The translations under genes and the position numbers were made by a program. From NCBI GenBank assembly GCA_019638775.1, contig JAHBTD010000002.1, forward strand, positions 248,001-312,000: DNA of 64,000 nucleotides, read 5' to 3'. The DNA comes from Fimbriimonadaceae bacterium. GTDB lineage: Bacteria > Armatimonadota > Fimbriimonadia > Fimbriimonadales > Fimbriimonadaceae. Position 1 is the stretch's first letter; each line of letters begins with the position of its first letter. Below are positions 44,300-50,234 of this stretch, one piece after another. The notes beneath the pieces are model-generated. The model was given only the letters and a program-made list of their open reading frames with translations, was not told the DNA's origin and searched no databases.

Positions 44300-44363
44300 G
44301 TCGATGACGGGGCGGTTGATAGGACTGTTGGGAGGTCCGAAACAAACGAGCTGCGCTCGGCGT

Positions 44364-44369
44364 TAGAAT
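44364..44369 (+). promoter_or_regulatory. -10 box upstream of the riboswitch
   Basis: TAGAAT, placing the start site near 44376, about a dozen bases before the riboswitch aptamer. Confidence 0.4.
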
Positions 44370-44387: not shown

Positions 44388-44463
44388 ACCCAGAAGGGGA
44401 GTAGCGCCCTGGGCAACCAGGGGGAGATCATCGTCAAGACGCTGAAAAGCCGGTGATCCCAAA
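44388..44463 (+). ncRNA. yybP-ykoY (manganese) riboswitch aptamer
   Basis: Contains the family hallmark GGGGAGTAGC (44397-44406), a stable P2 hairpin (CCCTGG-GCAA-CCAGGG), the second conserved loop CATCGTCAAGAC and GCTGAAAAGC. GATCATCG also pairs with CGGTGATC. The class binds Mn2+ and usually controls Mn exporters of the TerC or MntP type. A TerC gene is the third gene downstream. An intrinsic terminator follows 5 nt later, so control is probably by transcription termination, read-through being favoured with Mn2+. Confidence 0.85.
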
Positions 44464-44468
44464 ATCGC

Positions 44469-44508
44469 AAGACCTTCATCGCATTTCGTTGCGATGAAGG
44501 TCTTTTTT
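44469..44508 (+). terminator. Riboswitch-associated intrinsic terminator
   Basis: A perfect 15-bp stem (AAGACCTTCATCGCA and its complement) with a 6-nt loop and a T-tract, ending 22 nt before the htpX start. It is the expression platform of the riboswitch. Confidence 0.9.
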
Positions 44509-44530
44509 GTTACTCCTGGTGAGAATGATC

Positions 44531-45370
44531 ATGATGAACACAGTCAAAGTTGGAATCCTGTTAGTCGCCCTAACCGCGATCCTTGTCCTGATTGGACGAG
44601 CGCTCGGCGGGGCAACCGGGGCCATCATCGCCCTTGGGCTCGCGATCGTGCTCAACCTCGGGAGTTTCTGGTTTAGCGACAAGCTCGTCGTGAAGATGAC
44701 GAAGGCCCGTCCGGTCTCCCCGGAACAGGCTCCCGAGCTTCATGCCATGGTGGAGCGGCTATCGGCACGAGCGGGTATTCCCAAACCCGGACTCTACGTC
44801 GTCGATGACCCGACGCCTAACGCCTTCGCCACCGGGCGCAGTCCAGAACGCGGCATCGTCGCCGTAAATACGGGTCTGCTACAGATTCTGGATCAGCCCG
44901 AGGTTGAGGGGGTTATCGCCCACGAACTCGCTCACATCCGCCACCGCGACACACTCACGATGGCAGTGGTTGCGACGGTTGCAGGCGCAGTCATGCTTCT
45001 TGCCGACTTCATGCGCATCTTCGCCATTTTTGGCGGGGGCGACGAGGACGGTATGAACCCGCTCGCGCTTATTGTGATGAGCATCGTTGCGCCGTTCGCG
45101 GCGATCATCATTCAGTTGGCGATCTCGCGAGCACGGGAGTATGAAGCCGATCGGCTTGGAGCTGAGATTGCCGGATCGCCCCATGGGCTGGCGAACGCTT
45201 TGCGCAAGCTTGAATCGACGGCAGGAAAGCTGCCGACGAGGGCGAGCGCTACCACGGCTCACCTTTATATCATCAATCCGTTCGGAATGAGGGGTGGGAT
45301 ATCCAGCCTATTCCGAACCCACCCCACGACCGAGGATCGCATTTCACGACTCATGGCATTGAGCCGCTGA
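44531..45370 (+). CDS. htpX: Membrane zinc metalloprotease HtpX (M48B)
   Basis: 279 residues from the ATG at 44531, seven bases after GGTGAG; neighbouring ATGs at 44525 and 44534 are possible. Two N-terminal helices, then the cytosolic zinc site VIAHELAHIRHRD, two further helices and the third ligand in EYEADRLGAEI. NAFATGRSPERG and GMRGGISSLFRTHPTTEDRI are HtpX signatures. HtpX degrades damaged membrane proteins. It directly follows the Mn riboswitch and terminator, so its expression should respond to manganese. The zf-TFIIB and TerC genes follow in the same direction. Confidence 0.95.
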   Translation: MMNTVKVGILLVALTAILVLIGRALGGATGAIIALGLAIVLNLGSFWFSDKLVVKMTKARPVSPEQAPELHAMVERLSARAGIPKPGLYVVDDPTPNAFATGRSPERGIVAVNTGLLQILDQPEVEGVIAHELAHIRHRDTLTMAVVATVAGAVMLLADFMRIFAIFGGGDEDGMNPLALIVMSIVAPFAAIIIQLAISRAREYEADRLGAEIAGSPHGLANALRKLESTAGKLPTRASATTAHLYIINPFGMRGGISSLFRTHPTTEDRISRLMALSR

Positions 45371-45468
45371 GTTGGAAATGCAGATTCGGAATGCCCCGTC
45401 GTTACTGCCAAGAACCGAAGGCACATTCGGTTCTTGGCCTTGAATAGAACCTAGGAACCCACTGAAAA

Positions 45469-45708
45469 ATGACCTGTCCAACATGCAACACAGACCTTCT
45501 CCTTTCTGAGCGCAAAGGGATTGAGATTGACTACTGCCCCAAATGTCGGGGCGTATGGCTTGACCGTGGTGAGCTTGACAAGATCATCGAACGTTCTTTG
45601 GAAGACCAAAGCGCCCCGGGGAAGAATCGCAGCGATCGATTCGATGACGACGATGACAAGCGTGAACGAAAGCGGGGCGGTTTCTTGGGAGACCTGTTCG
45701 ACTTTTAG
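45469..45708 (+). CDS. zf-TFIIB-type zinc-ribbon protein
   Basis: 79 residues. One zf-TFIIB domain: MTCPTCNTDLLLSERKG followed by IDYCPKCRGVWLDRGELDKI, with four cysteines in CxxC pairs. The rest is acidic/basic (DRFDDDDDKRERKRGG). Such small proteins are widespread and poorly characterised. It lies between htpX (98-nt gap) and the TerC gene (115-nt gap) and may share the riboswitch-controlled transcript. Confidence 0.85.
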   Translation: MTCPTCNTDLLLSERKGIEIDYCPKCRGVWLDRGELDKIIERSLEDQSAPGKNRSDRFDDDDDKRERKRGGFLGDLFDF

Positions 45709-45823
45709 GCAGCCGAAATCCCACACGTCAACCGGGTGTGCACGCGCGCCCTCACAACATGCGAATCCGCTGAAGCGTGATGCGCAGCGGCTATGAACCG
45801 CCCCATAAAAGGGAAGATCAAAG

Positions 45824-46849
45824 ATGGAACTTGCAGGTATTTCAATATGGGTTTGGGGCGGCTTTCTTGCCTTTGTCCTCTCGATGCTGGCCTTAGATCT
45901 CGGCGTCTTTCATCGAAAGTCGCACGAGGTAAAGATGAAAGAGGCGCTGACTTGGAGCGCCGTTTGGATTGGGATTGCCCTTCTGTTTAACCTGGGCATT
46001 TACCTCTTTTGGGACAGCGTTAGTCACGCGGCGGTCTCTGCCGATGGAACCATCTACTCGAACAAGGATGCGGCGATGGCGTTCTTGGCGGGCTACCTCA
46101 TCGAGAAGGCGCTGAGTATAGACAACATCTTTGTCTTTATCATGGTGTTTGCCTTCTTCAATGTGCCCCCGAAGTATCAGCATCGTGTGCTGTTTTTCGG
46201 GATTCTGGGCGCGCTCATCTTTCGAGCGGCATTCATCGCGGCTGGAGCGGCGATGTTGGAGAGGTTCTTTTGGACGATGCTTATCTTCGGCGGGCTGTTG
46301 ATCTTCAGCGGCATTAAGATGATTACCCTTAAGGACAAGCATCTCGACCCAGAGGGCATCCCTTTCGTGAGATGGTTCAAGCGACTCATGCCCGTGACCC
46401 CCGGCTATCACGGGCAAAGCTTCTTTACAAGGATAGACGGGAAGCTGTGGGCGACCCCCTTGTTCATCTCCCTGATCGTTATTGAATTCACGGATATCAT
46501 CTTTGCCGTCGATTCTATCCCTGCGATTTTCGCCATCACTCAGAATCCGTTTATTGTCTTCACTTCGAACGTCTTTGCGATTCTCGGTCTCCGAGCCCTA
46601 TTTTTCGCAATCTCCGGGTTGGTCAAGCTGTTCCATTATCTGAGCTATGGCCTGGCGATCATTCTCGTCTTTGTCGGTGGCAAGATGCTCTTCAATTACG
46701 CCGTTAAAGTGGATTGGCTGACCGTAGGTGATTATGAGAAGTTTCCCATCGGTTTGTCGCTTGGAATCATTGTTGCGATCCTGAGCACTTCGATCTTGCT
46801 GTCTGTGCTGCGTCCACCGGCGAAGGCAACCGATGAGGGACCTGAGTAA
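45824..46849 (+). CDS. TerC/Alx-family membrane transporter
   Basis: 341 residues and about nine helices. TerC signatures: ALDLGVFHRKSHEV, LAGYLIEKALSIDNIFVFIMVF, PVTPGYHGQSFFTRIDGK and VIEFTDIIFAVDSIPAIFAIT. The acidic residues in the SIDN and AVDSIPA helices are thought to bind metal. TerC/Alx proteins export Mn2+ and metallate secreted enzymes, and are classic targets of yybP-ykoY riboswitches such as the one 1.4 kb upstream. The ~115-nt gap before it has two short inverted repeats (around 45721-45740 and 45768-45792) but no second copy of the riboswitch motif. Confidence 0.94.
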   Translation: MELAGISIWVWGGFLAFVLSMLALDLGVFHRKSHEVKMKEALTWSAVWIGIALLFNLGIYLFWDSVSHAAVSADGTIYSNKDAAMAFLAGYLIEKALSIDNIFVFIMVFAFFNVPPKYQHRVLFFGILGALIFRAAFIAAGAAMLERFFWTMLIFGGLLIFSGIKMITLKDKHLDPEGIPFVRWFKRLMPVTPGYHGQSFFTRIDGKLWATPLFISLIVIEFTDIIFAVDSIPAIFAITQNPFIVFTSNVFAILGLRALFFAISGLVKLFHYLSYGLAIILVFVGGKMLFNYAVKVDWLTVGDYEKFPIGLSLGIIVAILSTSILLSVLRPPAKATDEGPE

Positions 46850-46899
46850 CCGATAGCGCCCTTCGTATGAGAGCTGAAGCAGAGGCTGGATCGTGCGAC

Positions 46900-46929
46900 C
46901 TGACGCCGATTGAGTCCGACAGGTAAAAT
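46900..46929 (+). promoter_or_regulatory. Candidate promoter of tig
   Basis: CTGACG - 18 nt - TAAAAT, with the -10 extended by a G (GGTAAAAT), about 40 nt before tig. Confidence 0.4.
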
Positions 46930-46968
46930 CTCTGCGCTACGCCAACCCTCGAGGAAACTCTTTTTAAT

Positions 46969-48306
46969 ATGCAAGTCACACGTGAAGATCTGAATCCCTG
47001 CACCATCAAGCTGACCGTCGTTTGCGGGGAAGACCAGGTTCGAGAAGGTTTCGATAAGGCCTACAAACAGTTCGCAAAGCGAATTAAGGTTCCCGGATTC
47101 CGACCCGGCCATGCTCCCAAGCACATGGTTGCCCAGTCGATTCCGAAGGATGACCTTTATGATTCGGCAGCGGACAACATTGTGCGGGCAGCCTTCCGCG
47201 ATGCTCTCAAAGAGCAGGAGTTGGAGCCAGCCAGCCAGCCCTCGGTCGAACTTACTTTGATCAACGAGGAGGAAGCCAAGTGCGAATTCTCGGTCAAGGT
47301 GCCGTTGGCCCCGGTCGTCGAACTTGGCGAGTATAAGGGTCTAGCCGCAGGCGTTCCTCCGGTCGATGTCACCGACGAGGACATTGATCACCAGATTGAG
47401 GAGCTGCGCAAGCGCAAATCCACTCGCGAGGCCATCACCGATCGTGGCGTTCAGGATGGCGATGTCACCGTCGTGAATATCAAGATCGACGGCGAAGCGG
47501 GCGAAGGCCGAACCTTCATGACCATTGCCGGACAAACCTTCCCGCAGCTTGACAAGGCGCTTAGCGGAATGAAGGCAGAAGAGGTCAAGGTTGTTGAGCT
47601 GACTTTCCCCGACAACTTCCAAGAAGCCGACTGGAAGGGCAAGAAAGAAAAGTGCCACGTCACGGTGAGGTCGCTTAGCTCGGTGAAACTTCCCGAGGTT
47701 GACGACGAGTTTGCTCAAACCCTGCAAGCGGACAGTGTGGATGCTCTTCGTGCACGGATGCGAGAGCTTCTTTCTGGCGCAAAAGAGCAGATGGCGATTG
47801 AATTTCTCAATGAGCAGTTGCTTGAGGCCTTGCTTGGATCAAGCACGATTCACGTTCCTGACACGATGTGGGAGCAGGTTGCGAGTCGACGACTTTATGA
47901 GCTTGCGGTTGAGCAGCAAGACAAGGGTAAGTCGATGGAAGCCTATGCCACAGAGCAAGGTATGACAGTTGCTGAGCTCGAAGAATCTTGGCGTAATGAA
48001 GCAAAAATGCACGTTACGCGAGCAGTTGCGATCCAAGAAATCTTCAAACGGGAGAAGATGGAGCTCACAAATGCCGATCTAAATATGCAGTTGGTCTCAA
48101 TGGCATCGGAATACGAGGTGAAGCCGGAAGAGATGCTGGAGATTTTGAAGAAGAACAAAGCGTTGGACGAACTTCAATTCCGGGCTGTCTTCCACAAGGT
48201 CGCGAACTTCCTTCGGGACAACGCGGTCCTATCGGAAATGAGCCTCGAAGGGGACCAACGCAGTGCGGCTCCCAAAAAGAGCCGTAGTAAGAAGAAATCG
48301 GACTAA
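46969..48306 (+). CDS. tig: Trigger factor
   Basis: 445 residues, the usual size. The ribosome-binding N-terminal domain has the family signature [17 protein letters not shown]. The PPIase (FKBP) domain spans about 150-245, ending in [27 protein letters not shown] (quoted in part). The long helical chaperone domain follows. It binds nascent chains at the ribosome exit. A Lys/Ser-rich tail ([12 protein letters not shown]) closes the protein. clpP starts 10 nt later and clpX follows, the common tig-clpP-clpX operon. Confidence 0.96.
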
Positions 48307-48316
48307 CTTAGGATTT

Positions 48317-48922
48317 ATGGATATGGAAATCAAAGGAATGGGTGTCCCTTATGTCATCGAACAGACTTCGCGTGGCGAACGCAGCTACGACATCTGGTCG
48401 AGATTGCTCAAGGATCGGATCATCTTCCTCGGTACTGAGGTGGACGATTATGTTGCGAATCTGCTGATCGCACAGTTTCTCTTCTTGGAGAAAGAGGACC
48501 CCGACAAGGACATTGACTTCTACATCCACAGTCCGGGAGGATCGGTTACGGCGGGGCTTGCGATTTATGACGCGATGCAGCTCATCAAATGCGACGTTGC
48601 CACGACATGTGTCGGTATGGCGGCGAGCATGGGTGCGGTCCTATTGGCTGGAGGCGCAAAGGGCAAACGATACTGCCTTCCGAATGCCCGAGTCATGATC
48701 CACCAGGTTAGCGCTGGCTTCCGAGGAACGGCAGCAGATATCCGTGTTCAGGTTCGAGAAACCGAGCATTACATGGACACGCTGATGAAGATTCTTGCCG
48801 ACCACAGCGGCCAGCCCGAAGACAAAGTGCGTCAGGATGTGGATCGGGATTACTGGTTATCTGCCGAAGATGCCATGAATTACGGGATTGTCGATAAAGT
48901 TATCAGTCCCACCGCACGATAA
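48317..48922 (+). CDS. clpP: ATP-dependent Clp protease proteolytic subunit
   Basis: 201 residues from the ATG at 48317, preceded by TTAGGA. Catalytic triad: Ser103 in [10 protein letters not shown], His128 in ARVMIHQ and the Asp of DVDRDYW. The hydrophobic docking and oligomerisation segments ([20 protein letters not shown]) are intact. It forms the tetradecameric barrel that works with ClpX. A longer reading from 48263 overlaps the end of tig and lacks conservation. clpX starts 16 nt downstream. Confidence 0.97.
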
Positions 48923-48938
48923 TAGGATTGAGGAAACG

Positions 48939-50234
48939 ATGGCGAGGACTTTGGAAAGGCGCGACCAGTGTTGCTTGTGCGGCAAAAGTAAAGAGCAGGT
49001 TAAGAAGCTCATTGTGGGACTCCACGGAGCGGTGTGTTCAGACTGTATTGACCTGTGCAACGACATTCTCAGCAATGAGATCGACAGAACGACTTTGGGC
49101 ACAACCGCCGCTTCGGTTGCTTCGGCTGCACGGCACGCAGGCATCAAGGCCAGCGAAGAGACGCCGAAGCCCAAGAACATAGTTGAATTCTTGGATGGAT
49201 ACGTTATCGGCCAGGAGAGTGCAAAGCGTGCTCTCTCGGTTGCCGTATACAACCACTACAAGAGAATTACCGACGAAAGCGACGACGTGGAGCTTCAGAA
49301 GAGCAACATCTTGATGCTCGGACCGACGGGATGCGGAAAGACCCTTCTTGCCCAGTCTTTGGCTCGGATGCTCAACGTCCCGTTCGCGATCACCGATGCG
49401 ACCGCGCTCACGGAAGCCGGATACGTCGGCGAAGACGTCGAGAACATCATCCTTCGACTTTATCAGGCCGCTGAGAACATCGACCCGAACAACGCCAAGG
49501 CGCTTTGTGAGAGGGGCATCATCTATGTAGACGAGATCGACAAGATCTCTCGCAAGAGCGATAACCCATCGATTACACGAGACGTCAGCGGCGAAGGCGT
49601 TCAGCAGGCTCTTCTTAAGATTCTTGAAGGCACGGTTGCCAACGTTCCCCCGCAGGGTGGTCGCAAGCACCCTCAGCAGGAGTATCTGCAGATCGACACC
49701 AAGAACATCCTCTTCATTTGTGGAGGCGCGTTCGATGGCATGGAAGAGCAGATTCGCCGCCGCATGAAGGAGAACGTGATGGGCTTCCGGGCAAACCCCG
49801 AGAGCAACAAAGAGCGCGATCCGAACGTGCTGCGACAGGTTCAGCCTGAGGACCTCTTGAAGTATGGGTTGATCCCCGAGTTCATCGGACGTCTTCCCGT
49901 GCTGGCTACGCTTGATCCGCTTGATGAGGAGACTTTGGTTCGAATCCTTACCGAGCCGAGAAACGCCATCGTCAAGCAGTACAAGAAGTTCTTCTCGATG
50001 GACGAAGTGGAACTCATCGTGGAAGATGGAGCCGTGCGCGAGATCGCTAATGAAGCGATCAAGCGTGGGACGGGCGCTCGTGCACTCCGTGCCATCGTTG
50101 AGAACATCATGCTCGATGCGATGTATGAAGTTCCCAGCAGCGACATCAAGCGTGTGATCATTCCCGATGGTGTCCTTTCTGAGCAGACGCCGCCAATCCT
50201 GTTGACGGCAGAGCAGATTAAGCAAGCCTCGTAA
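48939..50234 (+). CDS. clpX: ATP-dependent Clp protease ATP-binding subunit ClpX
   Basis: 431 residues from the ATG at 48939, with GAGGAAACG directly upstream. N-terminal C4 zinc domain ([15 protein letters not shown] ... CSDCIDLC), AAA+ Walker [13 protein letters not shown], Walker [10 protein letters not shown], pore loop GYVGEDVE, sensor/arginine regions EFIGRLPV and [10 protein letters not shown]. It unfolds tagged substrates and feeds ClpP. An intrinsic terminator 21 nt after the stop ends the tig-clpP-clpX operon. Confidence 0.97.

Follow-up and report, generated by a model that had tools for sequence, protein, structure and literature searches.

A predicted manganese riboswitch in front of htpX in Fimbriimonadaceae, with a putative ECF-type promoter

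Organization of the locus

The window is the whole stretch of DNA that was analysed, 64,000 nucleotides from a Fimbriimonadaceae bacterium whose genome amounts to 4.3 Mb in 126 contigs. The order on the + strand is scpB, leader, htpX, zf-TFIIB, TerC/Alx, trigger factor, clpP and clpX, with the last two labelled from a reading of the open reading frames and not from a family search. The features of the leader and of the three genes behind it are as follows.

44339–44364, + strand: ECF-like promoter signature GAAAC-N17-CGTT (−35 at about 44339–44343, −10 at about 44361–44364)
44390–44479, + strand: predicted yybP-ykoY-type manganese riboswitch aptamer, compact form (covariance model, covariation)
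44393–44397, + strand: P1 switch helix, 5′ strand GAAGG, pairing with CCTTC at 44473–44477
44396–44405, + strand: L1 motif GGGGAGTAGC, invariant in 27/27 aligned aptamers (partly through their selection, see below)
44432–44440, + strand: L3 motif CGTCAAGAC, with CGTCA invariant in 27/27 (again partly through selection) and the same context in E. coli alx
44469–44510, + strand: intrinsic terminator, a perfect 15-bp stem (44469–44504) and then a T run, with the P1 3′ strand included in its 5′ arm
44534–45370 (approximate), + strand: htpX, M48 membrane metalloprotease (HELAH); PF01435, 136.6 bits
45407–45438, + strand: 13-bp intercistronic hairpin without a U tract, in the htpX-zf gap
45469–45708 (approximate), + strand: small Zn_ribbon_TFIIB protein; PF13453, 68.8 bits
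45824–46849 (approximate), + strand: TerC/Alx family membrane protein; PF03741 and TIGR03718

The initial annotation read the three genes as HtpX, then a zf-TFIIB protein, then TerC, and the domain matches agree with this order. The window HtpX has the Peptidase_M48 domain with HEXXH (HELAH) that characterizes M48B, and the NCBIfam HtpX models match it below their cut-offs (338 vs 369 for the best). Its closest named relatives are Fimbriimonadaceae records (Armatimonadota). TIGR03718 gives 400.8 bits for the window TerC against a cut-off of 246.4, which places the protein in the TerC/Alx family.

The region 44534–50234 of the window is a proteostasis cluster, with htpX (and zf, TerC) followed by trigger factor, clpP and clpX. 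A further example is found at locus L170. At L161 the leader and htpX abut tig-clpP-clpX directly, and zf-TerC is located elsewhere with a leader of its own.

The aptamer and the P1/terminator switch

The yybP-ykoY manganese riboswitch (RF00080) is exemplified by the leaders of E. coli mntP and alx and of L. lactis yybP, and manganese riboswitches are known for exporters. The hallmarks of this class noticed in the initial annotation, GGGGAGTAGC at 44396–44405 and CATCGTCAAGAC at 44429–44440, are present in the window, corresponding to L1 GGGGAGUAG and L3 CGUCA in the RNA. The exact pattern of GGGGAGTAGC, 15–45 nt and TCGTCAA has 15 matches in 13 of 61 related genomes, and the reversed pattern has one. 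An alignment of 27 leaders was assembled from 28 candidates; a pattern match that lacks the structure (L080, at G029:C33) was excluded from it. A leave-one-out covariance model (R2), trained on the leaders of 26 relatives with the window sequence left out, scores the window leader at 82.5 bits (E 1.4e-18), its sole match in the 64 kb. The model trained with the window leader included (R1) scores it at 86.6 bits. A second alignment misaligned foreign leaders, and no model was built from it.

The proposed structure pairs 86.7% of the cells in the alignment, and changes on both sides of a pair number 85 compared to 28.8 in shuffles. With the partners shifted by one column, pairing falls to 48–49%. 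P1, P2, P3 and the distal helices covary, as in other yybP-ykoY members, with P2 paired in only 65% of the cells on this alignment; at one P1 pair, six sequences have G-C in place of A-U. Among the invariant columns are GGGGAGTAGC, CGTCA, CCGG and, in the 3′ strand, AGA. This invariance is partly circular for the selection anchors (GGGGAGTAG and CGTCA) and for the AGA at which the 3′ ends were cut, but not for CCGG. The folded 136-nt leader of the window has a z score of −7.38. Judged by its motifs and covariation, the segment at 44390–44479 is a yybP-ykoY (manganese) riboswitch aptamer, and Mn2+ would be its ligand.

Rfam does not recognize this aptamer at its own threshold. RF00080 has no match in the 64-kb window at the gathering score of 45, and over the 61 related genomes it has none above the cut-off and six at E ≤ 1. 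The 261 nt that include the leader reach 15.8 bits (E 0.015). The same model (Rfam 15) gives 41.6 bits for the E. coli K-12 mntP leader (L365:2962–3058), also below the gathering score, and does not list the K-12 alx leader (L364:1876–1996) at E ≤ 1. The threshold is therefore uninformative here, and the notion that a missing RF00080 match means a missing riboswitch was dropped. The initial annotation had offered this search as a check on its proposal; the leader falls short (15.8 of 45 bits), but as the two controls fail too the proposal is not refuted. In 11 kb of E. coli DNA, the two best R1 matches are the alx leader (13.2 bits) and the mntP leader (12.5 bits), both of them weak. The L1 motif is also found in the mntP leader and the L3 motif in the alx leader, where the L3 region, ATCGTCATTACG ... 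CATCCGGTC, nearly equals the consensus of the Fimbriimonadia leaders. Like RF00080 members, the window leader has GGGGAGUAGC, CGUCA with CCGG, and GCGAGACC in the 3′ strand. It differs from them in its compact form of about 90 nt, below the gathering score, in having htpX as the first gene, and in the ECF-like promoter upstream.

A search with R1 through 100 Fimbriimonadia genomes, each at least 80% complete, finds 59 sites in 48 genomes, and 32 of these sites are new relative to the 27 leaders used for the model. All five P1 pairs form at 55 of the 59 sites, a count partly favored by the model that found them. At 49 of the 59, a downstream arm followed by T's can also pair with the 3′ strand of P1 (at least 8 of 9 positions). 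In the window, GCAAGACCTTC runs into the 15-bp terminator at 44469–44504. The initial annotation was right about a strong 15-bp terminator, which it placed 5 nt after the hallmarks, but the terminator is not separate from the aptamer, as the P1 3′ strand lies within its 5′ arm. Since this one strand can pair with either partner, P1 and the terminator are alternatives, and a P1 strand is shared with the expression platform as in the yybP-ykoY class. The proposed transcription switch is supported by sequence and structure.

The competition between P1 and a terminator resembles that in the L. lactis yybP switch. There, Mn2+ stabilizes P1.1 and termination is prevented (PMC11087558). By analogy, we infer the same ON direction for the window switch.

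Genes behind the leader

As judged by tblastn, the 59 sites divide by first gene into 19 with htpX, 20 with zf-TFIIB, 8 with TerC, 2 with a P-type ATPase and 10 where it is another gene or too distant. Among these ten are two sites with TerC at 448 nt, two with zf-TFIIB at about 302–322 nt and one at a contig edge, and the rest include genes for universal stress protein, carbonic anhydrase and TolC-like proteins (TolC-like by reading). R1 leaders in front of universal stress protein, carbonic anhydrase and TolC-like/ABC/HlyD-like genes are found at L146, L174, L175, L176 and L180; some of these, without a clear terminator, may be other elements. Within 2.6 kb downstream, TerC is found at 38 sites, zf-TFIIB at 31, HtpX at 19 and a P-type ATPase at 5, the last being nearest to the PMR1 type, yet below the cut-off of that model. 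The small zf-TFIIB protein is a regular member of the riboswitch regulon beside TerC, which is also present at 28 of its 31 sites. Its charged tail ends in FDF(D), and it is perhaps a metal or membrane-protein adaptor.

The 19 sites with htpX as the first gene span 11 genera. TerC follows, through zf-TFIIB, at nine of them and a PMR1-like P-type ATPase at two, with neither within 2.6 kb at the other eight. The position of the riboswitch in front of htpX, as initially annotated, is therefore a recurrent one. In the 61-genome set, the leader is directly upstream of htpX in 11 of the 16 genomes of the window's family that have the high-scoring HtpX type (matches of at least 240 bits), and in none of the 21 such genomes from other families of the order, both counts having been made by reading. 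Four genomes (G012, G014, G020 and G090) have separate leaders, one at htpX and one at zf-TerC. These indicate that htpX is itself a target, and they are the strongest argument for this and against htpX as a passenger. Taken together, the gene neighborhoods support htpX as a genuine, recurrent riboswitch target.

Similar leaders are also found outside the class. R1 has six matches at E ≤ 1 on a sample of 67 named HtpX loci, two of them from Fimbriimonadia members. Three others have 19.8 to 30 bits, with P1 and a terminator readable in each. Their gene orders are leader, htpX and TerC in a locus labelled Acidobacteria (L301), leader and htpX in one labelled Bacillota (L330, with htpX frame-broken in the contig), and leader, a VTT/DedA-type protein and htpX in one labelled Syntrophomonas (L304). 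The sixth match (L310, 14.2 bits) is regarded as chance. A Fimbriimonadaceae-type htpX operon is found in L298 (JADZEW010000008.1), titled Methanoregulaceae archaeon SJ84, and the title of this record looks wrong.

The gaps in the window operon are 98 nt (htpX-zf) and 115 nt (zf-TerC). The htpX-zf gaps in the other eight homologous operons are 5–58 nt, and some of these have hairpins without U tracts. Strong intercistronic hairpins of this kind, as in the window, are found at L153, L158, L133 and L140, and they are perhaps elements of mRNA processing or stability. No promoter-like site was called on the + strand of the zf-TerC gap (45709–45823). This absence, together with the shorter gaps in several relatives, favors an operon, and htpX, zf-TFIIB and TerC are likely to be co-transcribed in the window genome.

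Three other readings of this region have to be considered. The riboswitch might serve TerC, with htpX merely a passenger between leader and transporter. TerC is indeed near 38 sites compared to 19 for HtpX, and the order has leaders in other families too, while the leader-htpX arrangement is confined to the window's family. This reading is nonetheless quite improbable, as it does not account for the eight htpX leaders that lack TerC and P-type ATPase within 2.6 kb, for the four genomes with an htpX leader and a separate zf-TerC leader, or for the leader-htpX pairs in three MAGs assigned by label to other taxa. Somewhat more room is left for a Mn-switched htpX with zf-TFIIB and TerC transcribed separately, the hairpin at 45407–45438 ending or trimming the htpX message. 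The 13 bp of this hairpin, the gaps of 98 and 115 nt and a promoter-like match inside zf (45560–45587) would fit such an arrangement. However, the hairpin is not followed by a U tract, the zf-TerC gap has no promoter-like site on the + strand, and several of the nine operons have short htpX-zf gaps, so that separate transcripts are unlikely. A ligand other than Mn2+ is the least probable of the three, and very improbable by itself. The low RF00080 score of the compact form would fit such a ligand, but the L1 and L3 motifs are retained and TerC/Alx and PMR1-like pumps are encoded downstream.

Promoter signature and a model for the switch

The 75 nt upstream of the leader contain the signature G[AGC]AAC-N16–18-CGTT at 24 of the 59 sites. 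Two hundred shuffles with the same spacers give a mean of 0.175 and a maximum of 2, and the signature is absent from all 151 of the other ORF upstreams compared, which probably lie mostly within operons. A scan of spacers from 10 to 24 finds 17 nt at 23 sites and any other spacer at 0–1. The 17-nt form is concentrated at htpX, with 16 of 19 sites (10 of 11 genera) compared to 7 of the 40 others. A TATAAT-like box, on the other hand, is found at 16 of 40 non-htpX sites vs 3 of 19 htpX sites. The ECF pattern of the sigma-H/sigma-R type, a GGAAC −35 and a GTT −10 at fixed spacing, is thus seen in these leaders, with GAAAC in the window. The sigma-H promoters of M. tuberculosis, which combine GGAAYA (−34 to −29) with GTT (−11 to −9), agree in element sequence and spacing (PMC6411747). 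Unlike these promoters, the Fimbriimonadia signature is coupled to a riboswitch, and it is a putative ECF promoter by consensus.

The window genome has 32 matches to the ECF model, 27 of them above the cut-off. An autoregulated gene for the cognate sigma factor was sought in 30 sigma loci of this genome, with no convincing candidate. Among htpX genes without the riboswitch, a similar element is near the start in 6 of 20 (by reading). Several riboswitch-less htpX genes from another family (f2; L282, L283 and L286–L292) have GGAAC about 17 nt before GGTATAAT, possibly a hybrid promoter. The strict form GRAACTTT-N14-CGTTG is found before hsp20 in the window genome (G000:C1:1281992–1282018, L215) and before a ClpB-like gene (G048:C260, L212). 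It is present in 2 of 30 HSP20 upstreams (reversed control 1) and 0 of 30 GroES upstreams, which does not support the motif as a general heat-shock promoter.

An ordinary sigma-70 promoter, with the GAAAC-N17-CGTT match having no role, would be consistent with the TAGAAT that overlaps CGTT in the window, with the TATAAT-like box at 19 of the 59 sites, and with a cognate sigma factor not being found among the ECF loci inspected. The fixed spacer and the rarity of the signature in shuffled sequence are difficult to reconcile with it, and we consider this explanation doubtful. Transcription probably starts through an ECF-type stress sigma factor that acts at GAAAC-N17-CGTT.

We therefore describe the window leader, with good confidence in the reading as a whole, as a Mn-sensing transcriptional ON switch over htpX, probably ECF-initiated and with likely read-through to zf-TFIIB and TerC. 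The ECF stress sigma factor would start transcription. At low Mn2+, AAGACCTTCATCGCA would pair into the terminator and transcription would halt ahead of htpX. Mn2+ binding between L1 and L3 would keep the shared strand in P1 (GAAGG/CCTTC) and so block the terminator, and RNA polymerase would continue into htpX and then, by read-through, into zf-TFIIB and TerC. The genes would thus be expressed where high Mn2+ coincides with stress to membranes or thiols, and the membrane protease HtpX would be supplied together with TerC, a Mn2+ transporter or metalation factor. Put more generally, a sigma-H/sigma-R-like stress promoter would initiate and the Mn2+ riboswitch would gate elongation, with HtpX and TerC or the PMR1-like ATPase made only under membrane/thiol stress and high Mn2+, and with HtpX a general member of the Mn regulon, also outside Armatimonadota. 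This generalization is tentative, and we give it somewhat less than an even chance.

The combination of TerC and HtpX is similar to that of MeeF/MeeY and their secretosome partners in B. subtilis. MeeF, a TerC protein of B. subtilis, co-purifies with SecDF, FtsH and HtpX, and the TerC proteins help to metalate exported enzymes (PMC10550928). That is a physical association, whereas here the two would be linked by shared riboswitch control and an operon. The initial annotation of TerC as a Mn exporter is correct as to the family, but TerC may be more than an exporter, given that B. subtilis TerC proteins act in exoenzyme metalation (PMC10550928). A shared Mn2+ switch fits a common job of HtpX and TerC at the translocon. 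A membrane protease would then be available at times of abundant Mn2+, when proteins of the envelope are possibly mismetalated. No paper that puts htpX under a Mn riboswitch was found in the literature searched; Dambach 2015 and Price 2015, the likeliest to treat gene context, lay outside the coverage of this search.

The leaders described here are an entire lineage of putative Mn switches that is overlooked by an Rfam scan at the gathering score. Through their recurrent htpX target, membrane proteostasis would be tied directly to the sensing of Mn2+. This would also lend support at the level of regulation, from another phylum, to the finding that TerC proteins cooperate with quality-control proteases at the translocon. 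The arrangement of stress promoter and riboswitch would be a natural, testable two-input gate. It suggests that membrane housekeeping is tuned together with manganese handling in Fimbriimonadaceae cells.
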